A DNA stretch of 64,000 nt from positions 2,776,539 through 2,840,538 of the forward strand of contig NZ_FXXA01000002.1 in assembly GCF_900184265.1 (NCBI RefSeq), read 5' to 3'. Within the stretch, counting starts at the first letter, position 1, and each line of letters opens with the position of its first letter. A model generated the notes under the pieces. The model did no database searches. It was not told where the DNA came from and saw nothing but the letters and a program-made list of their open reading frames with translations. Shown here piece by piece: positions 11,193 to 46,969 of the stretch. The position numbers and the translations under genes were made by a program. This DNA comes from Eggerthella timonensis (GTDB lineage Bacteria > Actinomycetota > Coriobacteriia > Coriobacteriales > Eggerthellaceae).

Positions 11193-12401
11193 TTACAGGG
11201 CGGTGCCGGCGATCCAGTCGGCGTACTCCACGTGGCCGTCGTGCTTGTCCACGCCGCGCGCGATGGTGATGCGCTGGACGGTGGGGGCGCCTTCCTCAAG
11301 CCACATGGCGCGGCAGTCGCGGTACAAACGCTCGGTCGGGCCGTAGGGCGAATCCTCGAAGTAGCCGTCGCCGCCGAAGATCTCGAGCATCTCGTCGGAA
11401 ACCATCTTCACGGTGTCGATGGAGAACAGCTTGCACATGGCGGCCTTCTCGTCGACGAACTCGTTGTGCGGGTCCACGTCGTACTCGTCGGCGAAGTCCA
11501 TGATCATGCAGCGCAGCGCGTGGATGTTCGTGGCCATGTTCGCCAGCTTCATCTTGATGGCCTGGCGCTGGATGATCGGCTTGCCGAAGGTCACGCGGTC
11601 GCGGGCACGGGCGATGGACATCTCGAGCATGCGCTGGGACATTCCCAGGTTGGAGTCGGCGATGTGCACGCGGGAGATGGCGAGCGAGTGCATGGCCACT
11701 TCCATGCCCTGGCCCTCCTCGCCCAGCAGGTACTTCGGGTCGAGCACGACGTTGGTCATCTTGAAGCCCGCATGGCCCGCGCCGCGGCAGCCCATCATGT
11801 GCGGCATGGGGACCAGCTCGAAGCCCGGCGTGTCCATGGGCACGAAGAAGGCGGACAGGCGCTCGTCGCCCTTCTTCTCAGGGTCGGTCACCGCGATGAC
11901 GTAGGCGTACTGCGAGCAGTCGGTGTGGGAGATGAGCCACTTCTCGCCGTTGAGCACGTAGTTGCCGTTCTCGTCCTTGAGCGCGGTGGTGTGCAGGTCG
12001 GCGCCGGTGCCGCCCGTCTGCTCGGTCAGCGCGAAGTTCGTGAAGATGGTCTTGTCCTGGAACTTGTCCATGAACTCGGCCTTGAGCTCCGGCTTGCCGT
12101 AGTCGTCGAGGATGCGCCAGTTCAGGTCGGCCGCGTAGTGCAGGTGCATGCGCATGCCGCCCGGGCCGCGGGAGAACTCCTCCTGCACCTGCAGGATCTC
12201 CTTCTCGGACAGGCCCCATCCGCCGTACTCCTCGGGCAGCGCGTAGCGGTACAGGTTGTTCTCGATGGCCAGGTCGTAGAATTCCTGCGGGAACTTGTTG
12301 GTGACCTCGACCTCCTTCTGCATCTCCTCGAACGGGCCTTCGGCGAGCGCGCGCACGGTCTTGAGGTACTCGCGGAACTCCTCGGGGGTTAGCTTGCTCA
12401 T
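11193..12401 (-). CDS. Acyl-CoA dehydrogenase A (module 1; close paralogue of the one at 44 kb)
   Basis: This 402-residue FAD enzyme oxidises an acyl-CoA to a 2-enoyl-CoA or runs in reverse as a reductase. It starts at an ATG behind AAGGAGG. Visible family features are the substrate/FAD segment (LTEQTGGTGADLHTTA), the central RVTFGKPI motif, and a C-terminal segment with Glu370 (EEGAPTVQR) at the usual catalytic-base position. It resembles the enzyme at 43987-45174 along its whole length, with identical runs such as EYGGWGLSE and EEFSRGPGGMRMH. It is divergent from acyl-CoA dehydrogenase B and shares a mirrored promoter architecture with it. Its electron acceptor is probably the FixAB ETF encoded across the promoter. 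Confidence 0.92.
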   Translation of the reverse strand: MSKLTPEEFREYLKTVRALAEGPFEEMQKEVEVTNKFPQEFYDLAIENNLYRYALPEEYGGWGLSEKEILQVQEEFSRGPGGMRMHLHYAADLNWRILDDYGKPELKAEFMDKFQDKTIFTNFALTEQTGGTGADLHTTALKDENGNYVLNGEKWLISHTDCSQYAYVIAVTDPEKKGDERLSAFFVPMDTPGFELVPMPHMMGCRGAGHAGFKMTNVVLDPKYLLGEEGQGMEVAMHSLAISRVHIADSNLGMSQRMLEMSIARARDRVTFGKPIIQRQAIKMKLANMATNIHALRCMIMDFADEYDVDPHNEFVDEKAAMCKLFSIDTVKMVSDEMLEIFGGDGYFEDSPYGPTERLYRDCRAMWLEEGAPTVQRITIARGVDKHDGHVEYADWIAGTAL

Positions 12402-12898: not shown

Positions 12899-14053
12899 AT
12901 GGATTTCAGCCTGACCGTCGATCAGGAACTGCTGGTCGAGAGCATCCAGGAATTCGCTGACCGGTACTTCGACGAGGAGACCGTCAGCGCCATGTACGAG
13001 AACCACGGCATCCCCGACGAGATCGGCGAGGCGTACCGCGACGCGGGGTTCGCCTTCATGGGGCTGCCCGAGGAGTGCGGCGGCATCCCCTGCGACAAGC
13101 TCACGCTGGGCCTCATGACCGAGACGCTGTACCACGCCACCGGCTGCATGACCCCGTTCATGACCGCCATGCTGGCCACGGCCGACGTCGCGGAGTTCGG
13201 CACGCCCGAGCAGGTGTCGCTCGTCGTCGACCAATATAACAAGTCGGGCAAGCCCATCGCCTCGCTGGCGCTGTCGGAGCCGGGCGCCGGCTCGGACAAC
13301 AAGGCCATGAGCACGTACACGAAGCGCCAGGCCGACGGCACGTACATCATGAACGGCCAGAAGACCTGGGTCACGAACGGCGGCAACACCCCCTACATGC
13401 TCGTGGTGTCCAAGGACGAGCATCCGGCCCACGCCAACGAGAGCATGTCGCTGTGGCTCATCCCCACCGACGCCCCGGGCCTGTCCACCGCCCCGCTCGA
13501 GAAGATCGGCCAGCAGATCATCCCGTTCGTCGACGTGTTCTTCGACGAGGTCGTGCTCACCGAGGACATGCGCCTCGGCAAGGAGGGCGAGGGCTTCCTG
13601 CTGCTCATGAAGAACTTCGAGATCGAGCGCTGCCTCGTGGTGGCCCAGTCGCTCGGGCTCGCCCAGGCGTGCATGGACGACGCGGCCGCCTACGCCAACG
13701 AGCGCTACGCCTTCGGCAAGCCCATCGGCTGGAACCCCATGATCCAGGACATGCTGGCCGAGATGGAGACCATCCTCGAGAACTCCCGCAACATGCTGTA
13801 CAAGACGCTGTGGCAGCTCGACCAGGGAGAATCGGTGCGCACCGAGGCGGCGCTGCTCAAGCGCTACGCCACGGTGGGCTGCACGAAGGTGGCCGACATG
13901 GCGCTGGAGATCTTCGCCGCCCTCGGCTACACCACGGCCTCCCGCGTCGGCCGCATCTGGACCGACCTGCGCGGCAACCAGCTTGCCGGCGGCACCGTGG
14001 AGATCATGAGCTACATCGCCGGGCGCCAGATCCTCAAGCGCTACGCGAAGTAA
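12899..14053 (+). CDS. CaiA-like acyl-CoA dehydrogenase B (2-enoyl-CoA reductase type)
   Basis: This 384-residue flavoprotein begins MDFSLTVDQELLVESI, close in style to CaiA (crotonobetainyl-CoA reductase). The ATG follows AAAAGGAG. FAD/substrate motifs are present (LSEPGAGSDNKAM, RYAFGKPIG). The usual catalytic Glu is replaced: the motif reads LAGGTVEIMSY with Gly364 where acyl-CoA dehydrogenases have Glu. CaiA, as I recall it, also lacks this Glu (SGGSDE). The gene heads a five-gene plus-strand operon with fixABCX, as expected for a reductase fed by an electron-transferring flavoprotein. The natural substrate is unknown; crotonobetainyl-CoA is only one option. Confidence 0.9.
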   Translation: MDFSLTVDQELLVESIQEFADRYFDEETVSAMYENHGIPDEIGEAYRDAGFAFMGLPEECGGIPCDKLTLGLMTETLYHATGCMTPFMTAMLATADVAEFGTPEQVSLVVDQYNKSGKPIASLALSEPGAGSDNKAMSTYTKRQADGTYIMNGQKTWVTNGGNTPYMLVVSKDEHPAHANESMSLWLIPTDAPGLSTAPLEKIGQQIIPFVDVFFDEVVLTEDMRLGKEGEGFLLLMKNFEIERCLVVAQSLGLAQACMDDAAAYANERYAFGKPIGWNPMIQDMLAEMETILENSRNMLYKTLWQLDQGESVRTEAALLKRYATVGCTKVADMALEIFAALGYTTASRVGRIWTDLRGNQLAGGTVEIMSYIAGRQILKRYAK

Positions 14054-14106: not shown

Positions 14107-14877
14107 ATGAACATTGCCGTAGCGGTGAAAGTGGTGCCCGACGACCAGGACATCGCCGTCGCATCCGACCGTACCCTCGACTACTCCAAAGCCCACCAGA
14201 TCGTGAGCGAGTACGACCTCAACGCCATCGAGGCGGCCACGCTCTTGGCCGAGGAGGCGGGCGCCACACTGTACGCGGTGAGCGCCAGCAACGCGAAGGC
14301 CGACGACCTCAAGGTGAAGAAGAGCATCCTGTCGCGCGGCCCCGCCGAGCTGCGCATGATCGCCGACGACGCGTTCGCCTTCGCGGACGCCCGCACCACG
14401 GCGCGCGCCCTCGCCTCGCTCGTGAGGGGCATCGGAGAGGTGGACCTCGTGGTGTGCGGCGACGGCTCGGCCGACATGTACGCCGGCCAGGTGGACGTGC
14501 AGCTGGCCGCCGAGCTGGACCTGCCGGTGATCAACGCCGTCTCGTCCATCAAGCTGGAAGACGGGGCAGTGGTGGTGGAGCGCACGCTGAGCGACGTGGT
14601 GGAGGAGATCGAGGTGCCGCTGCCCGCCGTGGTGGCCGTGACGCCCGAATGCGCGTTCCCCCGCATCGCGGGCATGCGCGAGATCCTCGCGGCCGGCAAG
14701 AAGCCCGCGACGGTGACCTCGGCCGCGGACGCGGGCGTGGACACGAGCGCCGCGGTGGAGACCGCCAGCATCACGGCGCCCGAGCTGGCCGAGCGCAAGC
14801 GCCAGGTGTTCGACATGAAAAACGACGGCGACTTCGACGCGTTCGCGTCGGCCGTGGCCGCGGCCGTCCGCGCGTAG
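14107..14877 (+). CDS. fixA: FixA-type electron transfer flavoprotein beta subunit
   Basis: The 256-residue EtfB/FixA protein (MNIAVAVKVVPDDQDI start) binds AMP or a second FAD and pairs with FixB. The conserved VVCGDGSADMYAGQV and RTLSDVVEEIEVPLPAVV segments match the family. The ATG follows GAAAGGAA. It sits 53 bases after acyl-CoA dehydrogenase B and 27 bases before fixB, in the classic cai/fix order. It should shuttle electrons between the acyl-CoA dehydrogenase and FixC. If it bifurcates, NADH would drive both enoyl-CoA and ferredoxin or quinone reduction. That is family knowledge, not visible here. Confidence 0.92.
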   Translation: MNIAVAVKVVPDDQDIAVASDRTLDYSKAHQIVSEYDLNAIEAATLLAEEAGATLYAVSASNAKADDLKVKKSILSRGPAELRMIADDAFAFADARTTARALASLVRGIGEVDLVVCGDGSADMYAGQVDVQLAAELDLPVINAVSSIKLEDGAVVVERTLSDVVEEIEVPLPAVVAVTPECAFPRIAGMREILAAGKKPATVTSAADAGVDTSAAVETASITAPELAERKRQVFDMKNDGDFDAFASAVAAAVRA

Positions 14878-14904
14878 CCGGTAGACGAGAGAGAGGCATC
14901 CATC

Positions 14905-15795
14905 ATGAAAGCATTCGTTATCGCTGAATCGGCCGATGCGCAGAAGGAGCTCTGCGCCGGGGCGCGCACGCTCGCCGACGAGGTCCTGCTCGTCACCATC
15001 GGCACCGACCCCGCGACGGGCGTGGCCGACAAGGCCTTCGCCGTGGAGCTGCCGCAAGGCGAACTCGTGGAGAACGCCTACGGCGCCGTGGCCGCGCTGT
15101 TCGACGAAACCGCGCCCGACGTGGTGCTGTTCGAGCCCACGCCGCGCCTCAAGATCGTGGGCGGGCGCCTCGCGGCCCACGCGAACACGAGCGTGATGAG
15201 CGACGTCACCGCCCTCGACGGCGCCGAGGCCGAGAGCCTGTACTTCGGCGGCCTCGCCACGAAGAAGCAGCATGCCGCGGGGCCCGTGGCCTTCTACTCC
15301 TGCAACGGCGCCGCCTTCGACGGGGCCGAGGCGTCGGGCACCGACGTCGTGGAGGCGCGCGCGTTCGTCGCGCCGGAGAAGCCCCTCAAGCTGCGCGGCA
15401 CGCACGAGGTGCCGCACATGGGCGCCGACCTGGGCCGCGCGTCGGTCATCGTGGGCGCCGGGCGCGGCTTCGCGCACGAGGAGGACCTCGAGCTGGCGCG
15501 CAGCCTGGCCTCGGCCGTGCACGGCGAGATCGCCTGCTCCCGCCCGCTCGCCGAGAACGAGAAGTGGCTGCCCAAGAACCTCTACCTGGGCGTGTCGGGC
15601 CGCATGGTGGCGCCGAAGGTGTACTTCGCCGTCGGGATCTCCGGCCAGATGCAGCACATGATCGGCGTGCACAACGCCGACATCATCGTGGCCGTGAACA
15701 AGGACCAGAACGCGCCCGTGTTCGCCCAGGCCGACTTCGGCCTCGTGGGCGACCTGCACGAGGCGCTGCCGGCCCTCGTCGAGAAGCTGTCCTAG
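14905..15795 (+). CDS. fixB: FixB-type electron transfer flavoprotein alpha subunit
   Basis: This 296-residue EtfA/FixB protein has a Rossmann-like N-terminal half and the C-terminal FAD domain signature (GVSGRMVAPKVYFAVGISG, QMQHMIG). It is preceded by GAGAGAGG. It forms the heterodimer with FixA and passes electrons to FixC. The spacing of 27 bases on each side shows co-transcription with fixA and fixC. Confidence 0.93.
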   Translation: MKAFVIAESADAQKELCAGARTLADEVLLVTIGTDPATGVADKAFAVELPQGELVENAYGAVAALFDETAPDVVLFEPTPRLKIVGGRLAAHANTSVMSDVTALDGAEAESLYFGGLATKKQHAAGPVAFYSCNGAAFDGAEASGTDVVEARAFVAPEKPLKLRGTHEVPHMGADLGRASVIVGAGRGFAHEEDLELARSLASAVHGEIACSRPLAENEKWLPKNLYLGVSGRMVAPKVYFAVGISGQMQHMIGVHNADIIVAVNKDQNAPVFAQADFGLVGDLHEALPALVEKLS

Positions 15796-15822
15796 CGGAC
15801 CGGGCTGAGGAAAGGTATCCCC

Positions 15823-17118
15823 ATGTCCGATGATCAATTCGACGCGATCGTCGTCGGCGCCGGGTGCGCCGGCGCGGTCGCGGCCTACCGGCTGGCCTCC
15901 GCGGGCCTCGCCGTGCTCGTGGTGGAGCGCGGCAACTACGCCGGCGCGAAGAACATGACCGGCGGGCGCATCTACACGCATGCGCTCGCCCGCGTGTTCC
16001 CCGACTTCGAGGAGCGCGCTCCCCTGCAGCGGCGCATCACGCACGAGAAGATCTCGCTGGCCGCGCCCGATGCGCTGTTCACGATGGACTTCACGGCCGA
16101 CGAGCTGCGCGAGTCGGGCAAGGACTCCTACGCGGTGCTGCGCGGGCCCTTCGACCAATGGCTCGCCGAGCAGGCCGAACAGGCGGGCGCCGACTTCATC
16201 TACGGCATCGCCGTGGAGGACCTCATCGTGCGCGACGGCAAGGTATGCGGCGTGCGTACCGGCGGCGACGAGGTGGAGGCGCGCGTCACCGTGCTGGCCG
16301 ACGGCGTGAACTCGCTGCTCGCCCAGAAGGCGGGCCTCGCCGACGGAACGCCCCTGCCCCACCAGATGGCCGTGGGAGTGAAGGAGACCATCGCGCTTCC
16401 GCCGTCGGTCATCGAGGACCGCTTCCTGTGCGCGCCCGGCGAGGGCGCGGCGTGGATGTTCGCCGGCGACTGCACGAAGGGCCGCGTGGGCGGCGGCTTC
16501 CTGTACACGAACGACGACTCGATCTCGCTCGGCCTCGTGGCCACGCTGTCCGACCTCGCGGCGGGCGACGTGCCCATCTACCAGATGCTCGAGGACTTCA
16601 AGCAGCGCGCCGACATCGCCCCGCTCGTCAAGGGCGGCGAACTCGTGGAGTACTCGGGGCACCTCGTGCCCGAGGGCGGCCTCGCCATGGTGCCGCGCCT
16701 CTACGGCGACGGCGTGCTCGCGTGCGGCGACGCCGCGATGCTCTGCATGAACCTGGGCTACTCGGTGCGCGGCATGGACTTCGCCGTCAGCTCGGGCGAC
16801 CTCGCGGCCGACGCCGTCATGGGCGCGCTCGAGGCCGACGACGTGTCGGCAGCGCGCCTGGCCGCCTACGAGCAGCTGCTCGACGGCTGCTACGTGCTGC
16901 AGGACCTCAAGCGCTTCCGCCGCTTCCCGCGCTACATGGAGGAGACGACGCGCATCTTCAACGAGTACCCGGCCATGGCCCGCGACGTCATGCTCAACCT
17001 GTTCAAGGTAGACGGGCATCCGCAGCAGCGCGTCAAGGACAAGCTTTTGGGCCCGCTCAAGCGCGTGGGCCTGTGGCAGCTGGCCCAGGACGGCAGAAAG
17101 GGGATGAAGGCCCTATGA
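15823..17118 (+). CDS. fixC: FixC-type FAD-dependent ETF:quinone oxidoreductase-like protein
   Basis: This 431-residue flavoprotein has an N-terminal dinucleotide-binding motif (VVGAGCAGAVAA, residues about 10-21), a mid-region FAD contact and a C-terminal ACGDAAMLCMN segment where the FAD pyrophosphate usually sits. Homologues take electrons from FixAB and pass them to FixX and then quinone or another acceptor. The stop overlaps the fixX start (ATGA), indicating translational coupling and a FixCX complex. No membrane helix is obvious, so membrane contact would be peripheral. Confidence 0.92.
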   Translation: MSDDQFDAIVVGAGCAGAVAAYRLASAGLAVLVVERGNYAGAKNMTGGRIYTHALARVFPDFEERAPLQRRITHEKISLAAPDALFTMDFTADELRESGKDSYAVLRGPFDQWLAEQAEQAGADFIYGIAVEDLIVRDGKVCGVRTGGDEVEARVTVLADGVNSLLAQKAGLADGTPLPHQMAVGVKETIALPPSVIEDRFLCAPGEGAAWMFAGDCTKGRVGGGFLYTNDDSISLGLVATLSDLAAGDVPIYQMLEDFKQRADIAPLVKGGELVEYSGHLVPEGGLAMVPRLYGDGVLACGDAAMLCMNLGYSVRGMDFAVSSGDLAADAVMGALEADDVSAARLAAYEQLLDGCYVLQDLKRFRRFPRYMEETTRIFNEYPAMARDVMLNLFKVDGHPQQRVKDKLLGPLKRVGLWQLAQDGRKGMKAL

Positions 17119-17411
17119 GCGATCCCGTCATCAACGTGAACGTCGACGCCAAACTGGCGCTCAACAAGTACAACGTGGACGAGGGCCACGCGCACATCGA
17201 GCTCGTCGACGACGCGGACCGCGCCGAGTTCCGCAAGCTCGTGCTGGCCTGCCCCGCCGCGCTGTACAAGTTCGACGAGGACGGCGGCCTGTCGTTCGAC
17301 TACGCCGGGTGCCTCGAGTGCGGCACGTGCCGCATCCTGTGCGGCGCCACCATCCTCGAGCGCTGGGAGTACCCCCAGCCCACCATGGGCGTCGAGTACC
17401 GCTACGGGTAA
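17115..17411 (+). CDS. fixX: FixX ferredoxin-like protein
   Basis: This 98-residue iron-sulphur protein is of normal FixX length. It carries CLECGTCRILCG near residues 61-72, supplying Cys for a [4Fe-4S] cluster, and the family ending (ILERWEYPQPTMGVEYRYG). It probably receives electrons from FixC. It is the last gene of the operon. A GC-rich gap follows before the divergent-style promoter of the LysR gene. Confidence 0.92.
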   Translation: MSDPVINVNVDAKLALNKYNVDEGHAHIELVDDADRAEFRKLVLACPAALYKFDEDGGLSFDYAGCLECGTCRILCGATILERWEYPQPTMGVEYRYG

Positions 17412-17596: not shown

Positions 17597-18523
17597 ATGA
17601 ACCTTTCCCAGCTGTACTACTTCCGCAAGCTCGCAGAGCTGCAGCACTACGCCAAGGCGGCCAAGGAGCTCTACATCACCCAGCCCTCGCTCTCGAACGC
17701 CATCAGCTCGCTCGAGCAGGAGCTGGGCGTGTCGCTGTTCCAGAAGACGGGCCGCAACATCCACCTCACGAAGTACGGCAGCGAGTTCCTCGTCTACGTG
17801 AACAAGGGCCTCGAGCAGATCGACAAGGGCATCGCCATCATGAAGAACTACGCCGGCACGAGCGACGGCGGCAAGATCGACCTCGGCTGCATCATCACCG
17901 TGCAGACCGACTTCATCCCCAAGCTCCTCAACGGCTACAAGGCCTCCACCGGCGGCGTCGCGTTCAGCGTGCGCGAGGACACCTCGCAGCCCCTCGTGAA
18001 GGACCTGCTGAGCGGCTGCTACGACGTGGTGTTCTGCGCGCGGGGCGACGACGACCCCGACCTCACGTACGTGCCCGTGCTCACCCAGAAGGTGGTCGTG
18101 GCCATGAGCGCCGACTGCCCGCTGGTCGAAAAGGCGTTCGTCACGCCGGCCGACCTGTACGAGCAGCACCTCATCACCTACGTCGACACCATCCCGCTCG
18201 GGCGGGCCATCAGGCGCATGCTCGACGAGCGCGACATCAAGAACGTCGAGTACAGCTACCTCGACGAGTCCATCCTGGCCGGCTTCGCGGCCAACGGCGT
18301 GGAGGCGGCCATCATGCTGGACACCTTCCTGCTGCGCAGCGTCGACAACGTGGTGGTCAGGCCCTTCTACCTGAGCCCGCTCGAGCGCCGCAGCTGCTAC
18401 CACCGCGTGTACATGGCCTACAGCACGAAGAACTACCACCCGTACTGCGTGGACCACTTCATCCAGTACGTCGCCGACACGAAGGCACTCGCCACCAACC
18501 CGAACGCCCGCTACATCGACTGA
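17597..18523 (+). CDS. LysR-family transcriptional regulator (module 1, first)
   Basis: The 308-residue protein has a LysR winged helix-turn-helix in residues 1-60 (LSQLYYFRKLAELQHYAKAA ... QPSLSNAISSLEQELGVSLF). A periplasmic-binding-protein-like effector domain follows. It probably senses the substrate or a CoA-pathway intermediate and controls the adjacent promoters. ATAG-N7-CTAT dyads at 12.5 and 27 kb are plausible sites. The gene 25 bases downstream runs the same way. It is clearly related to the two other LysR proteins in the window (shared LSQLYYF or LSQLYNF start), so the three probably arose with module duplication. Confidence 0.93.
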   Translation: MNLSQLYYFRKLAELQHYAKAAKELYITQPSLSNAISSLEQELGVSLFQKTGRNIHLTKYGSEFLVYVNKGLEQIDKGIAIMKNYAGTSDGGKIDLGCIITVQTDFIPKLLNGYKASTGGVAFSVREDTSQPLVKDLLSGCYDVVFCARGDDDPDLTYVPVLTQKVVVAMSADCPLVEKAFVTPADLYEQHLITYVDTIPLGRAIRRMLDERDIKNVEYSYLDESILAGFAANGVEAAIMLDTFLLRSVDNVVVRPFYLSPLERRSCYHRVYMAYSTKNYHPYCVDHFIQYVADTKALATNPNARYID

Positions 18524-18548: not shown

Positions 18549-19136
18549 ATGGCAGACACCGACAGCACCGGCTTGAGCCCCACGCGCACCCGCGCAACCT
18601 GGAAGCCCGGCGTATCCGACGAGCCGATCCCCTTCTACGGCTGCGACGGGTGCGCGGCGGTGTTCGTGGGCGTCGACGGCGGCGAGGGCCCGCAGCTCAC
18701 GGGCGGCGGGCGGCGCCCCACGATCGAGCTGCCCTACGCCCCCGCCCCCGACGCGAGCGCGTGCGCCGGCTCCCTGACGCGCCTCGCGGCCGCGGATGCC
18801 GCCTCCTGCGCCGACGCGATCGAGCTCTCCTACGACGTGGTGGGCGGGTTCGACCAGAACGCCCTGCGCGTGTTCTGGAAGGTGCGCGAGGACGGCTGCG
18901 AGCCGCGTTGGGTCGCGCTCAAGACGTTCACGGGGATGCAGCTCAAGTACGTGCTGCCGGGCAAGCGGCCGCCGCTCGTGTTCGCGCTGGGCGACGAGGA
19001 CGCCTACGCCTACTGCGACGAGGATCCCTGCGTCAGCTGCACCTTCCGCTGCAAGCGCGGATTCGAGCTGTACGCCTACGTCGAACGCGTCGGGCTCGTC
19101 GCGCTGGGCGTGCACCGCGAGGCCGTCACGCGCTAG
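18549..19136 (+). CDS. Unknown Cys-rich protein, possible degenerate desulfoferrodoxin fold (copy 1)
   Basis: This 195-residue protein is not a recognised family to me. It shares an 11-residue N-terminal block (SPTRTRATWKP) and a C-terminal block (DEDAYxYCDxDPCxxCxxRCKRGF) with the protein at 45199-45792. The N-terminal FYGCDGC (Cys32, Cys35) and the order of later segments (LKYVLPGKRPPLVF, then AYAYC) recall the desulforedoxin domain and superoxide-reductase domain of desulfoferrodoxins. The iron-ligand His residues of that domain are not evident. Cys156, 161, 164 and 168 form a tight cluster that could bind iron or zinc. Both copies sit next to acyl-CoA dehydrogenase modules and a LysR gene. 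A redox or metal-binding accessory role is inferred. It overlaps the convergent LysR gene by 11 bases. Confidence 0.75.
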   Translation: MADTDSTGLSPTRTRATWKPGVSDEPIPFYGCDGCAAVFVGVDGGEGPQLTGGGRRPTIELPYAPAPDASACAGSLTRLAAADAASCADAIELSYDVVGGFDQNALRVFWKVREDGCEPRWVALKTFTGMQLKYVLPGKRPPLVFALGDEDAYAYCDEDPCVSCTFRCKRGFELYAYVERVGLVALGVHREAVTR

Positions 19137-20073
19137 GACGGCCGTCCTCGGGGCGATCGGGGCGATAGCCGAGGTCGATCCCCGCCCCCTCGGCGTCGAA
19201 CTCCTTCACGAAGTCGATGAACGACTGCACGGCCGCCGTCTTGGCGTGCTTCGCGCTCGAAGCCAGGTACACCCAGTAGAAATCGGGGCGCACGCCTTCG
19301 AGGGGAACCGTCGTGATGTTCGAGAACACCTTGAGGCCGATGGAGTTCAGCATGAGCGCGCCGAGGCCCCCGTCCACCGACAGCGCCGAGGCCATCGTGA
19401 TGTCGTCGTCGTAGAGCGCGTCGACTCCCTCGAGCGAGCTCCGGGCAAGCAGGCGCTGCACCTCCTCGCCGATGGGCGTTCCGCGCCGATACGTGATGAG
19501 GCGTTGGTCGCGCAGCTCGTCGAACGACACCGACGCGCGGTCGGCCAGCGGGTGGTCTACGCGAACTCCCAGCTCCAGGCTGCGGTTGAGCACGGGGAAG
19601 TACTCGATGTCGGGCTCGTGGTCGCGCCTGCCGCAGAACGACACGTCGAGCGTCTCGTTGTGCAGGCTCTGCGTGAGGTAGTTCGTGAACGCCTGGTACG
19701 TCTCGATGCGAACCTCGTCGCCGAAGCGCTCGCGATACGCCTTGAGCAGCGTCGGCAGGTAGTCGTCCTGCACGGTGAACGTGGCTCCCAGGTTGATGGC
19801 GCCGCCCAGCTGCGCCTTGCGCCGGTTCATCGCGTCGATGCCGTCGTCGAGGGAGCGCAGGCTGTCGCTCACGTAGCGGTAGAACTCGCTGCCGTTCGAC
19901 GTCAGCCTGACGCTGCGGCCGTCGCGGCAGAACAGCGCAACGCCCAGCTCCTTCTCCAGCGAGCTGATCGCGTCGGAGAGCGTGGGCTGGGCGATGTAGA
20001 GCTCCTTGGCCGCTCGCGTGTAGTGCTGCAGTTCGGCGAGCTTCTTGAAGTAGTAGAGCTGGGACAGGTTCAT
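19126..20073 (-). CDS. LysR-family transcriptional regulator (module 1, second)
   Basis: This 315-residue regulator has an N-terminal LysR helix-turn-helix (residues 1-60, QPTLSDAISSLEKELGVALF) and a ligand-binding domain. It lies upstream of nothing on its own strand and 110 bases from the MFS gene, separated by a strong hairpin. Its 3' end overlaps the convergent Cys-rich gene by 11 bases. Control of the MFS transporter or the acyl-CoA dehydrogenase operon is inferred from position. Confidence 0.93.
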   Translation of the reverse strand: MNLSQLYYFKKLAELQHYTRAAKELYIAQPTLSDAISSLEKELGVALFCRDGRSVRLTSNGSEFYRYVSDSLRSLDDGIDAMNRRKAQLGGAINLGATFTVQDDYLPTLLKAYRERFGDEVRIETYQAFTNYLTQSLHNETLDVSFCGRRDHEPDIEYFPVLNRSLELGVRVDHPLADRASVSFDELRDQRLITYRRGTPIGEEVQRLLARSSLEGVDALYDDDITMASALSVDGGLGALMLNSIGLKVFSNITTVPLEGVRPDFYWVYLASSAKHAKTAAVQSFIDFVKEFDAEGAGIDLGYRPDRPEDGRPSA

Positions 20074-23265: not shown

Positions 23266-24576
23266 ATGTCAGTGACAGAGAAACTGAACGGGTATGGTCC
23301 TCTGAACGGCGTCAAGGTCGTCGAGCTGTGCGAATGGGTGGCGGCGCCTGCGACGGTGCGCGTTCTGTCCGAAATGGGAGCCGAGATCATCAAGGTCGAG
23401 CCCCTGCACGGCGATGCACAGCGCACGCAGGGCCCCGGGTTCGGATGCGAGCAGACCGAGCGCGAGGATCCCACCATCGACCTGAACAACACGAACAAGA
23501 ACTGGCTGTCACTCAACCTGAAGACCGAAGAGGGCTCCAAGGTCATGCACCAGCTGCTGGCCACCGCCGACGTGTTCGTGAACAACCTGCGCGACAAGGC
23601 GCTCGTGAAGCTGGGCCTGGACTACGCCTCGCTCAAGGAGAAGTACCCGACCCTCATCTGGGCGCAGATGCGCGGCTACGGCGAGTTCGGCCCCGAGCGC
23701 GACACCCCCGGCTTCGACGCGGTGTGCTGGGCGGCGCGCGGCGGCGTGGCGAACGTGTTCCGCGAGGACGGCCAGTCCCCCGCCATCCCGCCTCAGGCGT
23801 TCGGCGACTACAACGCGGCGTCCATCCTTTCCGGCGGCATCCTCGCCGCGCTGTTCAACCGCACCCGCACGGGCAAGGGCGACAAGGTCACCTGCAACCT
23901 GTACGGCGCGGCCATCTGGGGCGGCAACATCGGCGTCATGGCCACGCAGTTCGGCGCGCCCTACCCGAAGTCCCGCAAGCACGTGCCCAACCCCTTCAAC
24001 AACACGTACCGCACCAAGGACGAGAAGTGGATGCTCATCTGCATGCCGCAGTACGACAAGTACTACAACATGATGATGGAGATCACCGGCAACGACGAGC
24101 ACAAGGATCAGCCCGACACCTGCAACCTGCCCGCCCTCAAGGCGTCCGGCAAGCAGCCTGAGGTCATCGGCTGGCTCGAGGCGTCCTTCGCCACGAAGAC
24201 GTTCGAGGAGTGGGACGAGATCCTGCGCGAGCACGAGGTGCCTCACCAGAAGTGCTTCCGCTACACCGACATCATCAAGGACGAAGAGGCCTACGACAAC
24301 GACTCGCTGCGCTGGGTGGAGTACGAGGCGTTCGGCAAGAAGGCCATCCCCATGTCGCCGCTGCGCTTCGACGACTACGGCGATCCGCCGATCATCCTGT
24401 CGAAGCCGATCGGCTACCACACGGCCGAGTTCCTGCAGGGCCTGGGTTACAGCGACGCCGAGATCGCCGAGATGGAGGAGAAGGAAGCCATCAAGTGCTA
24501 CCACGGCGAGGAAGTGCCGGACGTCATCTTCAAGTCCGAGCGCCAGATCGCCGGCGAGGCCCCCTGCAACTGGTAA
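23266..24576 (+). CDS. CaiB/BaiF-type family III CoA-transferase (module 1)
   Basis: This 436-residue class III CoA-transferase moves CoA between carboxylates without ATP. The N-terminal half has the Rossmann-type CoA domain (GVKVVELCEWVAAPATVRVLSEMGAEIIKVE); the small domain and linker fill the rest. RGYGEFGPERDTPGFDAVCWAARGG precedes the usual active-site region. It starts at the ATG after AAAGGAG; an earlier in-frame start at 23182 lacks support. A strong terminator follows, so it is a single-gene unit. It probably keeps the acid substrate charged as a CoA ester once the CaiC-type ligase has primed the cycle. Confidence 0.92.
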   Translation: MSVTEKLNGYGPLNGVKVVELCEWVAAPATVRVLSEMGAEIIKVEPLHGDAQRTQGPGFGCEQTEREDPTIDLNNTNKNWLSLNLKTEEGSKVMHQLLATADVFVNNLRDKALVKLGLDYASLKEKYPTLIWAQMRGYGEFGPERDTPGFDAVCWAARGGVANVFREDGQSPAIPPQAFGDYNAASILSGGILAALFNRTRTGKGDKVTCNLYGAAIWGGNIGVMATQFGAPYPKSRKHVPNPFNNTYRTKDEKWMLICMPQYDKYYNMMMEITGNDEHKDQPDTCNLPALKASGKQPEVIGWLEASFATKTFEEWDEILREHEVPHQKCFRYTDIIKDEEAYDNDSLRWVEYEAFGKKAIPMSPLRFDDYGDPPIILSKPIGYHTAEFLQGLGYSDAEIAEMEEKEAIKCYHGEEVPDVIFKSERQIAGEAPCNW

Positions 24577-27333: not shown

Positions 27334-28959
27334 ATGATTACCGATCTCAAAATCAATGCCGAGCGGAAGCGATTCTACTACGAGAAGGGGTACTGGACCG
27401 ACAAGACCATCGGCGACGTGTGGGCCGATCGCGTCGCCTCCCATCCGGAGCGCACCTACGTTACCGACGACCAAGGGTCGTCGTACACGTACGGAGAGGT
27501 TGACGACCGCGCCGCGCGCCTGGCATCGTGGCTCATCGCGGAGGGAGTGCAGCCCGGAGACGTCGTGACGTTCCAAGTGCCCATCTGGGCCGAGTTCTGC
27601 ATCGTGTACGTGGCCTGCCTCAAGTGCGGTGCCGTGATGCACCCCGTGCCGCCGAACTTCAACGACGAGGACCTCGTCTACAACATGAACAAGGTGGGGT
27701 CGCGCGCGTTCATCTGCCCGACCGAGTTCCATCGCTGCGACTTCGTCGCGCAGGCCTACGCCGTGAAGGACCGCATCCCCACGCTGACGTCCATCGCGTT
27801 CATCGACAAGCAGGCCCCTGCGCCCGACGGTGCGCCGTGCCTGAGCGGCATCTGCGCCTCGTTCGAGCCCGTGCGGGAGCGCGCCGCCGCGTCGTCCGAC
27901 GACGTGGCGTGCATCCTGTCCACGTCGGGCACCACCGGCCGCCAGAAGGCGGTGCTGTTCACGCACAACAACATCCTGTTCTCCGAGCGCTCCTTCGTGA
28001 AGGGGCTCGGACGCACCGCCGATGACGTCATGTACATGCCCTCGCCGCTCAACCACGCGACGGGCTTCTACCACGGCCTCATCTCCCCCATGATCCTGGG
28101 CGGCCGCACGGTGCTGCAGGAGCACTTCGACGCTGCGAAAGCCTTCGAGCTGTGCAACCGCGAAGGCGTCACCTGGTCGATGGGCGCCACGCCGTTCATC
28201 TACGACATCCTCAAGTACCTCACGGCGGAGAACCTCGGCTCGTTCGACACGCTGCGCCTGTTCATCTGCGGAGGCGCCCCGGTGCCGGGATCGCTCGTGC
28301 AGTGCGCCTACGGCCACGGCATCCTGCTGTGCGAATGCTACGGCTCCACCGAGAGCTGCCCGCATGCGTTCGTGCCGCCCGAGCATTGCCTGGAGTGGGA
28401 CGGAGCCTGGTCGGGCATCCCCTTCCCCGGCATCGAGGTGCGCGTGGTGGACGCGGATCATCGCGACGTCGCGCACGGAGCGCAGGGCGAGGAGATCTCG
28501 CGCGGGCCGCACCAGTTCGTCGGCTACCTGAACGACAAGGAGCGCACCGATCGCGCGCTCGACGACGACGGCTGGTTCTACAGCGGGGATCTGTGCTACA
28601 TGGACGAAGAGGGCCGCATCCGCATCAACGGGCGCAAGAAGGAGATCATCATTCGCGGGGGCGAGAACATCTGCGCGAACGAGATCGACGAGAACCTCAT
28701 GGAGTGCCCCGGCATCGGCGATCACGCCACCATCGGCATGCCCGACGAGCGCCTGGGCGAGCGCATCTGCACCTTCGCGGTGCCGACGGGCGACGAGCGC
28801 CCCGTCCTGGCCGACGTCACGGGTTTTTTGGCCGAGCGCCACGTGGCGAAGCGCCTATGGCCCGAGCGCATCGAATACATCGACGAGATACCGAAGACGG
28901 CCACCGGCAAGGTCAAGCGCCATCTGCTGGCAGCGGAGCTGGCCGAGCGCATGAAGTAG
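27334..28959 (+). CDS. CaiC-like acyl-CoA ligase (AMP-forming)
   Basis: This 541-residue ATP-dependent acid:CoA ligase makes an acyl-adenylate and then the CoA thioester. Motifs are the AMP-binding P-loop STSGTTGRQK (197-206), the hinge/A8 region (GWFYSGDLCYMDEEGRI, INGRKKEIIIRGGENI) and the C-terminal catalytic Lys526 (PKTATGKVK). An ATG and a GTG one codon earlier are both usable behind AGAGAGGA; I chose the ATG. Its place opposite the crotonase and the shared operators make it the probable entry enzyme of module 1. Confidence 0.92.
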   Translation: MITDLKINAERKRFYYEKGYWTDKTIGDVWADRVASHPERTYVTDDQGSSYTYGEVDDRAARLASWLIAEGVQPGDVVTFQVPIWAEFCIVYVACLKCGAVMHPVPPNFNDEDLVYNMNKVGSRAFICPTEFHRCDFVAQAYAVKDRIPTLTSIAFIDKQAPAPDGAPCLSGICASFEPVRERAAASSDDVACILSTSGTTGRQKAVLFTHNNILFSERSFVKGLGRTADDVMYMPSPLNHATGFYHGLISPMILGGRTVLQEHFDAAKAFELCNREGVTWSMGATPFIYDILKYLTAENLGSFDTLRLFICGGAPVPGSLVQCAYGHGILLCECYGSTESCPHAFVPPEHCLEWDGAWSGIPFPGIEVRVVDADHRDVAHGAQGEEISRGPHQFVGYLNDKERTDRALDDDGWFYSGDLCYMDEEGRIRINGRKKEIIIRGGENICANEIDENLMECPGIGDHATIGMPDERLGERICTFAVPTGDERPVLADVTGFLAERHVAKRLWPERIEYIDEIPKTATGKVKRHLLAAELAERMK

Positions 28960-31042: not shown

Positions 31043-33103
31043 TCACCGCTCGAGGGCGAGCGCGTCGGACAACAGCTCGGCGATGTCCCGTACCGGCGGC
31101 GCCTCGTCGCATGACGCGAGGCCGTCTTCGAGCATGGACAGGCAGAAGGGGCAAGCGGTGGCCACGGCATCGGCGCCGGTCGCGCGGGCCTGCTCGGCGC
31201 GCAAGGCGCTCATGCGCTGCCCCTCGCGCTCCTCGAGCCACATGCGCCCGCCGCCTGCGCCGCAGCAGAAGCTCTTCTCGCGCGTGCGCTCCATCTCCAC
31301 CACCTGCGCGCCGCACGCGGCCACGACGGCGCGCGGCTCGTCGTACACGTCGGCGTAGCGCCCCAGGTAGCACGAGTCGTGGTACGTGACGCGCTCGAAC
31401 GCCGCAGGCTCGCCCGTCGCCCCCGCGCCCGGCAGCCTCCCCTCGGACACGAGCCTCTCGAGCAGCTGCGCGTGGCGCACCACCTCGAACGAGCCGCCCA
31501 GCTGCGGGTAGTCGCGTTCGAGAACCTGGGCGCAGTGGGGACACTGCACGACGATCTTCTTCGCCCCGAAGCGCTGCAGCGTCTCGATGTTCTCGGTTGC
31601 CAGCTGGTAGTACAGAAACTCGTTGCCCATACGGCGCGCCGCATCGCCGCAGCACTTCTCCTGAGCTCCGATGACGGCGAAATCAACGCCCGCGCGCCTC
31701 AGCAGCGCCACGAGGGCGCTCGACACCTTGCGGTTGCGCGCGTCGTAGGCGCCCGCGCAGCCGGGCCAGTACACGTACTCCGCGTCCGGCCGGTCGGCCA
31801 GCGTGGGCACGTCGAGCCCCTCCGCCCACGCCAGGCGGCTTTGCCACCCCAGGCCCCACGGGTTGCCGTTCGTCTCGAGGTTGCGGAAGGCCGCCTTCGC
31901 CTCCGCGGGGAACGCGCTCTCCATCGACACCTGGTAGGTGCGCATGCCTACCACTTTCGGCACATGCTCGAGCAGCGCCGGGCACGCCTCCGTGCACGCG
32001 CCGCACGTGGTGCACGACCACAGCGCCTCGGGCGCGACCACGTCGCCCACGAGCGCCTTGTCGAGCACAGCCCGCTGCTGCTCGGTCGGCTCGAACGCAG
32101 CGCCTGCGGCCTCGGCCTTGCGCTCGAGGAGCACGAGCGGCCCACGCTCTTCGAGATGGGTTTCGAGCGATTGGATCAGGCTCATCGGCGACAGCGGCTT
32201 GCCGCTCGCATGCGCGGGGCATACAGCTTCGCAGCGCCCGCAGCGCACGCACGCCTCGGCATCGAGCAGGTCCTTCCACGTGAAGTCCTCCAGCTTGCCC
32301 GCGCCGAACTCCTCGAGCTCCTCGTCTTCGAGGTCGACGAACGGCAGCGTTCCCTTCGGCTCGAGCGGGCGGCAGTACACCGTGGCGGGGACGAGCAGCA
32401 CGTGCACGAGCTTGGAGTACGCCCAGTACGCCAGAATGCCGAAGGCGATGGCCATGTGGAACCACCACAGCGCCTGGTGCGCGAGCGTCACCTGGGCGGC
32501 ATCGAGGCCCGACAGCGCCTGCGCGAACAGGTTGCCGACGGGCGACCACGCGGCCCAGGGGTCGTTCGTCCCGACGATGCGCAGCCCCTCCACGACGAAG
32601 CCCGTGACGCCGATGACGAGCAGCCAGACGAGCACGACGATGTCGGCCGGCGACGTGCGGAGCGAGGGGTTGCGGCCCGCCGCGCGCCGCACGATGCACG
32701 CCGCCATCGCGATGCAGAACGCCAGGCCGGCGATGTCGGTGCCGAGCGCCAGCACATAGAGGTAGTAGTCCCCCTTCGCGATGTCCACTCCGAGGTCCAC
32801 CTGCGCCGCGTAGCTCACGGTGGCCACCACCATGACGGCCATGCCCACGTACATCCCGAGATGCGCGATGCCGATGCCGCGCTCGCGCACCACGGTTGCC
32901 TGCAAAAGCGCGTCGAAGAACGCGCCCTTCAGGCGCTCGCGCGGACGGTCGGCGCGCTCGAGGGGGCGGCCGATCCTCCACAGCCGGTAGCGCCGCACGA
33001 AGAAGTACGCGGCCACGGCCAGCACCACCAGGAAGCAGGGGTACATGATCCACGACCCCTCGATGTTCCACAACGCCTCGCGCGCAGGCGTCGCCGCGTC
33101 CAC
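31043..33103 (-). CDS. Membrane FeS/haem-b electron-transfer flavoprotein:menaquinone oxidoreductase (EMO type)
   Basis: This 686-residue integral membrane oxidoreductase has an N-terminal NarI-like part with about five or six helices and membrane His residues for haem b. Two [4Fe-4S] motifs follow ([12 protein letters not shown] and [12 protein letters not shown]), then two CCG domains ([10 protein letters not shown] and [12 protein letters not shown]) like heterodisulfide-reductase subunits. Proteins of this architecture beside EtfBA have been assigned as ETF:menaquinone oxidoreductases. A GTG start two bases before the end of the EtfA stop fits tight coupling. It should pass electrons between EtfBA and the menaquinone pool. 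The direction depends on the substrate. Confidence 0.88.
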
Positions 33104-33104
33104 G

Positions 33105-34097
33105 CTAGGACGCCTTGCTCGCGCGGAAGGCCTCGGTCAGCAGCGGCACCGCCTCGAACAGGTCGGCCACGATGCCGTAGTCGGCCACCTTGAAGATCTC
33201 GGCCTGCGGGTCGGTGTTCACAGCCACGATGCACTTCGACGCCGCTGCGCCGGCCATGTGCTGGATGGAGCCCGAGATGCCGCAGGCGATGTAGAGCGAC
33301 GGGGCGACGGTCTTGCCCGTCTGCCCCACCTGGAACTGGATGTCGGTCCAGCCCTCGTCCACCGCGGGGCGCGAGGCCCCGACGGCGGCGCCCAGCACGT
33401 CGGCCAGCTCCTCGACGAGCGCGAAGCCCGCCGCGCCCTTCGTGCCGCGCCCGCCCGACACCACCGCGTCGGCCTCGGTCAGCTCCACGCGGCCCGACGC
33501 GCGGCGCACCACGTCGGCCACCGTCTGGCGCACGTCGCCGAAGCCGTCGACGTGCTGCATGAGCACCGGCGCCGTGCGGCCCTCGTCGGGCGCGGCCGGG
33601 TCGAACGCCTTCGGGCGCACGGTGACGACCATCGGGCGCGCGTCGGCGGCGAAGGCCACATCGGCGCGCACCTTGCCCGAGTACGGCTCGCGCGTGAACA
33701 GGAAGCCCTCCTGCGCGTCGGCCTCGACGGCCACCACGTCGGCGACGAAGCCGGTGTCCAGGCGCTGCGCGAGCACGGGGCCCACGTCGAGCCCGGTGGC
33801 GCCGTCGGCGAACAGCACCGCGTCGGGTCGCTGCTGCGCCGCGAGGGCCGCGAGGGCCGCCGCGTAGGCGTCGGTGGTGTACGGGGCCAGCGCCGGATCG
33901 TCCAGCGCGAGCACGGCGTCGGCGCCCGCCGCGCCGAGCGGGGCGCAATCGACGTCCCCCAGCCCGCTGCCCAGCACGACGGCGGCCACGTCCGTCCCCT
34001 CCGCGTCGGCCATGCGGCGCGCGAGTGCCAGCATCTCGAACGTCACGCGCGGAAACGACCCGTCCCGCGGCTCCGCGTATACCCAGATTCCTGCCAT
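33105..34097 (-). CDS. etfA: Electron transfer flavoprotein alpha subunit
   Basis: The 330-residue EtfA has a variable N-terminal domain and the C-terminal FAD-binding signature ([26 protein letters not shown]). It starts at an ATG behind GGGAGAG; the much longer open frame upstream is a shadow. It pairs with EtfB encoded 20 bases upstream and feeds the EMO-type reductase just downstream. It is distinct from fixB at 15 kb, so the region carries two separate ETF systems. Confidence 0.93.
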
Positions 34098-34117
34098 GGA
34101 TGCTCTCCCTTCCCGTC

Positions 34118-34906: not shown

Positions 34907-34954
34907 GGCTGCGATCCTCCTCGCCCCCTGCGCGCCGCGCCCGGCGGCGCGCTC

Positions 34955-43986: not shown

Positions 43987-45174
43987 ATGGGCAAGCTGAC
44001 GCCGCAGGAATTCGAGGCGCACCTCAAGGGGCTGCGCGCCTTCGTCGAAGGGCCGTGCGAGGAGATGCAGGCCGACATCGAGGTGACGAACAAGTTCCCG
44101 CAGGAGTTCTACGACCAGTGCAACGAGCACAACATCTACCGTATGTCGCTGCCCGAGGAGTACGGCGGCTGGGGCCTGAGCGAGCTCGAGACGCTCAAGT
44201 GCCAGGAGGAGTTCTCGCGCGGCCCCGGCGGCATGCGCATGCACATGCACTTCGCCCAGGACCTGAACTGGCGTCCGCTGTACGACTACGGCTCCGAGGA
44301 GCTCAAGGCCGAGCTCATGCCGAAGTTCCAGGACAAGTCCATCTTCTCGGCCTGGTGCCTCACCGAGGCCACGGGCGGCACGGGCGCCGACCTGCACACG
44401 ACGGCCGTCAAGGACGAGAACGGCGATTACGTGCTGAACGGCGAGAAGTGGCTCATCTCGTTCACCGACATGAACACGCACTCCTACATCCACGCGGTCA
44501 CCGACCCCGACGCCGACCCCGACCATCGCCTGTCCACGTTCTACGTGCCGGTGAACACCCCCGGCTACGAGGTCACGCCCATGCCGCATATGATGGGCTG
44601 CCGCGGTGCCGGCCACACGGGCCTCAAGTTCACGAACATGAAGGTGGACAAGAAGTACCTCCTGGGCGAAGAAGGCCAGGGCATGGAGATCGCCATGCAC
44701 TCGCTGGCCGTGTCGCGCGTGCACATCGCCGCGTCGAACCTCGGCATGGCGCAGCGCATGCTGGAGATCTCGCTCGCCCGCGCCGCCGACCGCATCACGT
44801 TCGGCAAGCCCATCCTGTCGCGCCAGGCCATCAAGATGAAGATCGCGAACATGCAGATGTACATCCACGCGCTGCGCACCATGGTGTACGACTTCTGCAA
44901 GGACTACATGCACGAGCCGAACGGCGCCTACATCGCCGAGAAGGCGGCCTGCTGCAAGCTGTTCTCCATCGACACGACGCGCCTCGTGTCCGACGAGATG
45001 CTCGAGATCTTCGGCGGCGACGGCTACTTCGAGGACAACCCGTTCGGCCCGGTGGAGCGCCTGTACCGCGACTGCCGCGCCATGTGGCTGGAAGAGGGCG
45101 CGCCCACGGTGCAGCGCATCACCATCGCGCGCGACTGCATCAAGCACGGCGGAACGATGGCCTACCTCGACTAG
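43987..45174 (+). CDS. Acyl-CoA dehydrogenase F (module 2; paralogue of A)
   Basis: This 395-residue flavoenzyme starts at an ATG behind GAGGAGG. Motifs are LTEATGGTGADLHTTAV, RITFGKPILSRQ and the catalytic-base segment EEGAPTVQR with Glu370. It is closely similar to dehydrogenase A across its whole length, with the same active-site residues, so the two probably handle related substrates in the two modules. The Cys-rich gene follows 24 bases later on the same strand. Confidence 0.93.
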   Translation: MGKLTPQEFEAHLKGLRAFVEGPCEEMQADIEVTNKFPQEFYDQCNEHNIYRMSLPEEYGGWGLSELETLKCQEEFSRGPGGMRMHMHFAQDLNWRPLYDYGSEELKAELMPKFQDKSIFSAWCLTEATGGTGADLHTTAVKDENGDYVLNGEKWLISFTDMNTHSYIHAVTDPDADPDHRLSTFYVPVNTPGYEVTPMPHMMGCRGAGHTGLKFTNMKVDKKYLLGEEGQGMEIAMHSLAVSRVHIAASNLGMAQRMLEISLARAADRITFGKPILSRQAIKMKIANMQMYIHALRTMVYDFCKDYMHEPNGAYIAEKAACCKLFSIDTTRLVSDEMLEIFGGDGYFEDNPFGPVERLYRDCRAMWLEEGAPTVQRITIARDCIKHGGTMAYLD

Positions 45175-45198: not shown

Positions 45199-45792
45199 AT
45201 GACCGACCGTGCGACATCCTCCTTGCGCGCGTGCGCGCCGCCAAGGCTCTCGCCGACGCGCACGCGCGCCACCTGGAAGCCCCGGGTGGACGAGGCGGAC
45301 GTCGCCCTGTATCGCTGCCCGCGCTGCGAAAGCCTCCTCATGGAGCTCGGCAGCGCCGCGGCGCAGGTCGAAACCGACCTGTGGCGCTCGGCGATCGTGC
45401 GCGCGCCCTACGGCGAGGCCGGCGGCGGCGCGCACGCACGGTGCCCGCGCTGCGGCGGGTCCCCCGTGCAGCCCATGGCCTTCCGCAGCGCATGCGCCGC
45501 CGACGAGGGGTTCTCCTTCGCGTTCACGGGAGGGATGGACGCGAACCGCCTGACGCTTTCCTGGGAGGATGCCGAAAACGGGCCCGCGCTCGTCGTGCTC
45601 AAGACGTTCACCGGCCTGCAGACGCGCCCGCGCCCGCGCGGAGGCGCGGCGGTGTTCCCCCTCGCAGACGAGGACGCCTACTGCTACTGCGACCTCGATC
45701 CCTGCGAGCAGTGCGTCGCGCGCTGCAAGCGCGGCTTCAAGCTGTACGTGGTGCGCGCCGACGGGGAGGCCCTGCGGTTCGCCTGCACATGA
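45199..45792 (+). CDS. Unknown Cys-rich protein, possible degenerate desulfoferrodoxin fold (copy 2)
   Basis: This 197-residue protein is homologous to the one at 18549-19136. It has four N-terminal Cys in two CxxC pairs (YRCPRC, Cys40/43; RCPRCGGSPVQPM, Cys82/85), which is the rubredoxin-like layout of desulforedoxin domains. The C-terminal cluster Cys164, 169, 172 and 176 is in YCDLDPCEQCVARCKRGF. Copy 1 has lost the second CxxC pair. No ribosome site is strong before the ATG, so coupling to dehydrogenase F translation is likely. Possible roles are electron carrier, metal site or oxygen protection for the flavoenzyme. None is shown directly. Confidence 0.75.
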   Translation: MTDRATSSLRACAPPRLSPTRTRATWKPRVDEADVALYRCPRCESLLMELGSAAAQVETDLWRSAIVRAPYGEAGGGAHARCPRCGGSPVQPMAFRSACAADEGFSFAFTGGMDANRLTLSWEDAENGPALVVLKTFTGLQTRPRPRGGAAVFPLADEDAYCYCDLDPCEQCVARCKRGFKLYVVRADGEALRFACT

Positions 45793-45914: not shown

Positions 45915-46856
45915 TCAGGCGGGGACGGCGAGTGCGCCCGGAGGGTCGCCCTGCGCGATCGACGAGAAGCGCCGCGCCGTCTCGACGAAGCTCTCCACCA
46001 CCTGGCTGCGGTAGATGCGCTTGTCGAAGGCCAGGTAGATGTAGTGGAAGTCGTCGGGCACGTCGGCCAGCGCGATCTTCTTCACGCCGTCGAAGCGCTC
46101 GATGGCGAACGTGTCCAGCATGACGCCCGGCATGGCGCGGTTCGCCACGACGACGCTCGTCAGCATGAACTCGTCGTCGTACACGATGGCGGGCTCGATG
46201 CCGCACCCCTCGAACAGCCGCTTCGCCTCCAGCCCCAGCGGCGTGTCGGGCGCGTAGCTGGCGAACGGCACGCCCCGCAGCTCCGCGAGCGACACGCTGT
46301 CGCGCTCGGCGAAGGGGCTTTCCTCGTGCACGACGAGGATGAGGCGCTTCGTCAGCATGGGCACGAAGCACAGGTTGGGCTCGCCTTCGGCCTTCGAGGC
46401 GAAGATCAGGTCGAACTCCTGGGCCTTGAGCGAGCGGATGAGCGGCAGCGAGAACTCCACCGTGAAGCCCATCTTCACGTCGTAGCCGTACTCCTGCCAG
46501 AACTGCTGCAGCAGCTCGGGAAGGAAGTCGTGCTGGATCGTGGGGATGGTGCCGATGCTGAGCGAGCCGCTTCCCACCGTGCCCTGGGCGCGCACCGCCG
46601 CGATGCTGCGGTCGAGGTCACCCAGCACGCCGGCGACGTCGGCGTAGAAGTCGCGCCCGTGCTTCGTCAGCCTGATCTGGCGCCCGTCGCGGAAGAAGAG
46701 GGGCACGCCCAGCTCGTGCTCGAGGGCCTTGATGGACAGGCTCAGCGTGGGCTGGGTGATGTAGAGCTCTTTCGCCGCGCGGGTCATGTGCTGCGTCTCC
46801 GCCAGCTTCTTGAAGTTGTACAGCTGCGAGAGGGAAAGCGAAGAAGAGTTGTTCAC
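45915..46856 (-). CDS. LysR-family transcriptional regulator (module 2)
   Basis: This 313-residue regulator has a LysR helix-turn-helix (LSQLYNFKKLAETQHMTRAA, QPTLSLSIKALEHELGVPLF) and an effector domain. I start it at a GTG with GAGGAG six bases upstream; an ATG seven codons earlier overlaps that site. It is related to the two module 1 LysR proteins. Likely targets are the CaiB 2 / dehydrogenase F promoter and the second crotonase promoter with their CCAATG words. Confidence 0.92.
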   Translation of the reverse strand: MNNSSSLSLSQLYNFKKLAETQHMTRAAKELYITQPTLSLSIKALEHELGVPLFFRDGRQIRLTKHGRDFYADVAGVLGDLDRSIAAVRAQGTVGSGSLSIGTIPTIQHDFLPELLQQFWQEYGYDVKMGFTVEFSLPLIRSLKAQEFDLIFASKAEGEPNLCFVPMLTKRLILVVHEESPFAERDSVSLAELRGVPFASYAPDTPLGLEAKRLFEGCGIEPAIVYDDEFMLTSVVVANRAMPGVMLDTFAIERFDGVKKIALADVPDDFHYIYLAFDKRIYRSQVVESFVETARRFSSIAQGDPPGALAVPA

Positions 46857-46969
46857 GGGTATCTCCTCACCTGCCATGGATGCAACCGGCGCTCGGCCCT
46901 TGTCCCTATCCTAGGCGCTTCGACGCCGCCGCGCCACGGCCAGCCTGGCCGTTCTGTTCCGTTCGGAAT

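Follow-up and report, generated by a model that had tools for sequence, protein, structure and literature searches.

Superoxide reductases (SORs) of the desulfoferrodoxin type, collected in Pfam family PF01880 and solved in the structures 1dfx, 1y07 and 2ji1, join a desulforedoxin-like N-terminal domain to a beta-sandwich that holds an Fe(His)4Cys site. In the class III SOR of Treponema pallidum, the N-terminal iron site has presumably been lost.

Small proteins of other folds are encoded beside genes of acyl-CoA metabolism. The gamma-butyrobetaine (bbu) cluster comprises the acyl-CoA dehydrogenase (ACDH) gene bbuA and genes for two CoA transferases, a ferredoxin, a transporter and a thioesterase (PMC8364193). 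For the zinc-ribbon/OB-fold proteins known as DUF35, which are unrelated to the family described here, a role in binding acyl-CoA or handing it over has been proposed (PMC2954200).

Here, we analysed a window of 64,000 nucleotides from the genome of Eggerthella timonensis that encodes two members of a Cys-rich protein family. The family shares descent with SOR and carries an invariant loop of four cysteines (Cys4) at the former iron-ligand position, and it co-occurs over genomes with one ACDH subfamily and one acyl-CoA ligase. Judged from sequence and gene context, it is probably a new dedicated helper of a CoA pathway and perhaps an electron carrier.

A gene pair with LysR neighbours

The features of the window are collected in Table 1. 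Copies 1 and 2 are 44% identical (E = 2.5e-30), and a search of the genome found no third copy beyond those at 18549 and 45199. A preliminary description of the window had given their lengths as 195 and 197 residues and reported that they share SPTRTRATWKP and a pattern, DEDAYxYCDxDPCxxCxxRCKRGF, that fits both; lengths and motifs are present as described. In copy 1, the SPTRTRATWKP arm is followed by a degenerate desulforedoxin-like part (C32xxC35 ... C72), an SOR-like beta domain and the Cys4 loop. The GC3 values of 0.96 (copy 1) and 0.91 (copy 2) are typical of real genes in this genome. Copy 1 is preceded by GGAGG as a ribosome-binding site and begins 25 bases past the stop of a LysR gene; no obvious ribosome-binding site precedes the ATG of copy 2. 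In the family tree, copy 2 belongs to a very long branch that is confined to the genus and shared only with two further species of it. The placement of a LysR gene beside each copy and the gap of 24 bases between an ACDH gene and copy 2, both already noticed in the preliminary description, were confirmed: LysR genes lie on both sides of copy 1 and one follows copy 2.

Table 1. The two family genes, their Cys4 loops and associated genes in the window
Feature	Position	Strand	Remarks
Second ACDH, same subfamily as 43987	11193..12401	-	Module 1; 72% to 43987
ACDH	12899..14053	+	Best NCBIfam match PRK12341, sub-threshold
FixA/EtfB, FixB/EtfA, FixC-like and FixX-like genes	14107..17411	+	FixC-like above NCBIfam PRK10015 cut-off
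LysR regulator	17597..18523	+	Directly upstream of copy 1; Pfam-confirmed
Copy 1 (P0001)	18549..19136	+	195 aa; C-terminal Cys4 loop after SOR-like beta domain
Cys4 loop of copy 1	19014..19052	+	C156-x4-C161-x2-C164-x3-C168, then K169
LysR regulator	19126..20073	-	Convergent with copy 1, 11-base overlap at copy 1 3' end; Pfam-confirmed
CaiB-type (family III) CoA-transferase	23266..24576	+	
FadK-like acyl-CoA ligase	27334..28959	+	Above NCBIfam PRK06087 cut-off; elsewhere, its homologue usually lies just upstream of the family gene
ACDH of co-occurring subfamily	43987..45174	+	24 bases upstream of copy 2; under all NCBIfam equivalog cut-offs
Copy 2 (P0003)	45199..45792	+	197 aa; N-terminal site CxxC ... 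CxxC
Cys4 loop of copy 2	45688..45726	+	Invariant Cys4 loop
LysR regulator	45915..46877	-	Convergent with copy 2, downstream of it

Descent from superoxide reductase

No Pfam or NCBIfam model matched the family. Neither copy matched PF01880 at E up to 1, and the genome's sole match to PF01880 lies in a separate gene. When a profile built from 13 homologues was run against all PDB sequences, the five best matches (all with E < 0.02, from 0.0013) were desulfoferrodoxins, followed by antibodies at chance level; the Cys loop alone gave only chance matches in the PDB. Alignment of the family with ten canonical SORs from related genomes by hhalign covered both domains with 99.2% probability and a pairwise E of 8e-20. 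AlphaFold2 models were made of the window protein (mean pLDDT 75.6) and of a clostridial member (77.7), and for each model the first nine Foldseek matches were all SORs with a probability of 1.00. The superposition is moderate, with a TM-score by target length of at most 0.72, and the Cys loop region, in structures predicted without cofactors, has low confidence (pLDDT about 45–65). In a class-wide run of the family profile, canonical SOR genes came up as a weaker, distant second tier whose positions are those of PF01880 matches (for example, in genomes G045, G065 and G069).

Because the profile-profile alignment, the PDB profile search, the models and the class-wide second tier agree, common descent with SOR is secure, and the fold evidence indicates desulfoferrodoxin/SOR and nothing else. 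The distant desulfoferrodoxin relationship suggested in the preliminary description, which an unrelated predicted fold would have contradicted, is thus borne out by hhalign, the PDB profile search and SOR-like predicted folds. Weak partial matches to PF01880 were also seen in larger open reading frames (about 210–480 aa) of Eggerthellaceae (G090:C5:35861-36028, G020:C1:3043778-3043948 and others similar), a third group that is possibly another SOR-fold family.

Loss of the iron ligands and a conserved four-cysteine loop

Conservation was counted over 50 family members. No His is conserved across them, and several members have none at all. The family rows of the joint alignment have other residues in place of the EKH motif, the HPM..H motif and the C-terminal His; EKH is invariant in the ten SORs and absent from every family row. 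The motif YC-x4-C-x2-C-x3-C-K is kept in 50 of 50 members, so that the loss of His ligands and the gain of a C-terminal Cys cluster, as first proposed from copies 1 and 2, hold for the family as a whole. Numbered by the trimmed alignment, the invariant positions are F137, E142-D143-A144 and Y147-C148-x4-C153-x2-C156-x3-C160-K161. The first Cys of the loop aligns with the iron-ligand Cys of SOR, i.e., the Cys trans to the substrate site. The first three Cys share their CX4CX2C spacing with plant-type [2Fe-2S] ferredoxins.

Far more variation is seen at the N-terminal desulforedoxin-type site. It is intact as CxxC ... CC in 17 of the 50 members, takes the form CxxC/CxxC in 9 and CxxC/CH in 3, has three Cys in 4 (the copy 1 type) and is lost in 17; on the family tree it has switched between kept and lost at least four times. 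Since this site varies or disappears and the Cys4 loop is present in every member, the family can do without the old N-terminal iron site but not without the C-terminal one. Superoxide reductase function was considered and rejected: the His ligands are absent and the genome has a separate SOR gene, and with its Fe(His)4Cys site gone the family cannot be SOR.

Distribution, gene neighbourhood and co-occurrence

Of 138 Eggerthellaceae genomes, 39 carry the family, in 17 of 48 genera; its members are related far beyond what chance would give. Elsewhere it is rare: two of 391 genomes in a clostridial class sample carry it, one of them the query's own, as does one of 394 genomes in another order, again the query's own. 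Isolated occurrences are in Agrilactobacillus, a Desulfovibrionaceae MAG, Eubacterium/Clostridiales MAGs and a Sporomusa termitida plasmid. This scattered occurrence outside Eggerthellaceae suggests horizontal transfer. Eggerthella sinensis (79% identity) is the closest named relative found, and where a label was seen (Sporomusa) the protein is annotated as hypothetical.

Neighbours were counted by tblastn at 50 loci; score-based gene calling misses the family gene in several AT-richer loci. Within 8 kb of the family gene, any ACDH is found at 42 loci, the specific ACDH subfamily at 38, a CaiB-type transferase at 43, a FadK/CaiC-type ligase at 31, LysR at 39 (within 4 kb at 38) and Etf/Fix genes at 18, about a third. 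The ligase is the direct upstream neighbour on the same strand, within 1 kb, at 26 of the 50, and at six loci, clostridial ones included, the start of the family gene overlaps the stop of an upstream ligase-sized frame by 4 bases. The canonical SOR genes of 20 of these genomes were examined as a control: within 8 kb, no ACDH, CaiB-type or LysR gene of the kinds counted was present at any of them, and a ligase at one. The homologues thus lie mostly inside acyl-CoA gene clusters, as expected from the preliminary description. On the Sporomusa plasmid, the order is ACDH - family gene - LysR - MFS ... CaiB - ACDH - Etf, and the plasmid adds a gene for a UbiD-type decarboxylase; in Agrilactobacillus (L155 7020-14551) the operon ACDH - CaiB - ACDH - EtfB - EtfA - ligase - family gene - GlcD-like oxidase is followed by genes for shikimate dehydrogenase, 3-dehydroquinate dehydratase and a BaiCD-like flavoenzyme. 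A shikimate dehydrogenase gene precedes the family gene in the Desulfovibrionaceae MAG (L013 1374-2138).

Among the 138 Eggerthellaceae genomes, 38 of 39 carriers have the ACDH subfamily vs 8 of 99 non-carriers (phi 0.85), and 38 of 39 vs 9 of 99 have the ligase (phi 0.84), comparisons whose Fisher p-values ignore kinship. A control ACDH of the window (37528) gave 12 of 39 vs 9 of 99 at 80% identity or more (phi 0.27), and phi 0.58 when the threshold was loosened so that paralogues counted. Inside several genera, the family and the ACDH/ligase set appear and vanish together. Near the ACDH and ligase genes of non-carriers, a search for a hidden divergent copy found no C-x4-C-x2-C-x3-C gene and only one chance frame of 26 residues. 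As the set exists without the family in these 8 (ACDH) and 9 (ligase) genomes, the family depends on the ligase/ACDH set and not vice versa; it is not universally required by either. The proposal of a "dedicated partner or redox sensor" is therefore sustained as to dedication, through co-occurrence with the ACDH subfamily and the ligase; the sensor part is weighed below.

Pathway genes and candidate substrate

Module 1 is similar to the ydi region of E. coli, in that the cut-offs of PRK10015 and PRK06087 are passed and PRK12341 is the best, sub-threshold match of an ACDH. We take PRK10015, PRK06087 and PRK12341 to model E. coli YdiS, FadK and YdiO, and the quinate/shikimate genes presumably adjoin ydiS/fadK/ydiO in E. 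coli. The shikimate genes beside the Agrilactobacillus and Desulfovibrionaceae MAG loci hint in the same direction, and hydroaromatic acids are at most a candidate substrate of the family-linked clusters; the Sporomusa plasmid, with its UbiD-type decarboxylase, differs in this respect. A literature search for Eggerthella with shikimate or cyclohexane metabolism or with desulfoferrodoxin found nothing relevant. The bbu cluster was rejected as the home of the family, as the family protein is not part of its described content.

A 260-aa protein at 36421-37203 has no Pfam match at E up to 1e-5, and in two other genomes (L082 and L083) a homologue of it (42% and 38%) immediately follows the family gene. 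An Fe-S flavoenzyme at 38828-40903 has BaiCD as its best NCBIfam match, well under the cut-off, and adjoins an ACDH that is 85–90% identical across several genera. At 31043-36094 lies another EtfA/EtfB/ACDH set, the second of the window, accompanied by a membrane Fe-S protein (CCG-domain, nitrate-reductase-gamma-like).

Proposed role and alternatives

The reading that we put forward, with about an even chance of being right, is that the SOR scaffold has been repurposed, with a Cys4 metal site, as a dedicated electron-transfer partner of a CoA pathway. The two-part desulfoferrodoxin architecture, a desulforedoxin-like N-terminal domain and an SOR-like beta-sandwich, is kept and the Fe(His)4Cys site is lost, and the C-x4-C-x2-C-x3-C-K loop right behind the old iron-ligand Cys position would most likely form a Cys4 metal site for an Fe-S cluster or for a single Fe or Zn. 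That the four cysteines bind a metal is very probable; whether the site would be redox active we judge to be evenly balanced. An organic acid would be activated by a FadK/CaiC-type ligase or a CaiB-type transferase, the ACDH subfamily would oxidise or reduce the activated CoA ester, and the family protein, made with the pathway and serving it, would most likely carry electrons to the ACDH from its donor, or from it to its acceptor (the Etf/Fix route). The metal, redox activity, physical partner and substrate are all things that we infer from sequence. Three observations weigh against an electron partner: the Cys loop is modelled with low confidence, Etf/Fix genes are near the family gene at only about a third of the loci, and some genomes, as counted above, have the ACDH subfamily or the ligase and lack the family.

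A non-redox scaffold, with structural Zn in the Cys sites and a beta domain that binds acyl-CoA and transfers it from ligase to dehydrogenase, much like the role proposed for DUF35, is the main alternative, a distinct if not a favoured possibility. It would fit the drift of the N-terminal site to zinc-ribbon-like CxxC/CxxC or CxxC/CH forms or to loss, the ligase rather than Etf as usual neighbour, and the basic and aromatic residues R13, K19, W110, K133 and K169, invariant or nearly so, which could bind CoA. However, the family has no sequence match to DUF35 (Pfam), and what it conserves best is no CoA-binding motif but a compact Cys4 loop where the redox site used to be.

A redox or metal sensor acting on the neighbouring LysR regulators or enzymes is improbable. 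Cys4 sites are common in sensors, and LysR is frequent within 4 kb; yet LysR proteins, of which these genomes have many, sense small ligands themselves, the family gene is coupled more tightly to the ligase and ACDH than to LysR, and a Pfam search of the copies found no DNA-binding domain. Removal of reactive oxygen for the protection of an oxygen-sensitive flavoenzyme, as a remnant of SOR function, would suit the descent from SOR but is more improbable still, with all His ligands lost and a canonical SOR elsewhere in the genome of 35 of the 39 carriers, without association (phi 0.01).

For the electron-transfer partner, a more specific version can be put forward only tentatively: the His4Cys iron of SOR may have been replaced in place by a Cys4-bound cluster, yielding an Fe-S electron-transfer subunit for CoA-ester respiration in anaerobic gut bacteria. 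The acids respired might be hydroaromatic ones from plants, for example shikimate or quinate. If true, a metalloenzyme fold would have lost its catalytic iron and gained a new metal site in place. In Eggerthella and its relatives, the family marks particular clusters of acyl-CoA genes, and one gene together with one ACDH subfamily and one ligase provides a handle for a substrate search.

Comparison with known systems

The di-[4Fe-4S] ferredoxin BbuD resembles the family as a small presumed electron carrier whose gene accompanies those for the ACDH and CoA-transferases of an anaerobic pathway in the gut (PMC8364193), but its fold is unrelated and the resemblance is one of position only. DUF35 proteins likewise combine a Zn-ribbon-like N-terminal domain with a beta domain in acyl-CoA gene neighbourhoods (PMC2954200); their C-terminal domain is an OB fold, whereas that of the family matches SOR (Foldseek). 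With the SORs of PF01880, the family has in common the domain order, the SOR-like beta-sandwich, the Tyr-Cys position of the iron-ligand Cys and, in clostridial members, the desulforedoxin-type CxxC...CC site. Unlike SOR, it has an extra N-terminal arm containing R and KP, and its genes lie in acyl-CoA operons, whereas canonical SOR genes are found elsewhere in the genome. Its best structural and sequence match is the class III SOR of Treponema pallidum (1y07), with a degenerate N-terminal domain, and the presumed loss of the iron site there would parallel that in the family. Yet 1y07 is an SOR with an intact iron site, and in the family that site is gone and a Cys4 loop has been gained.
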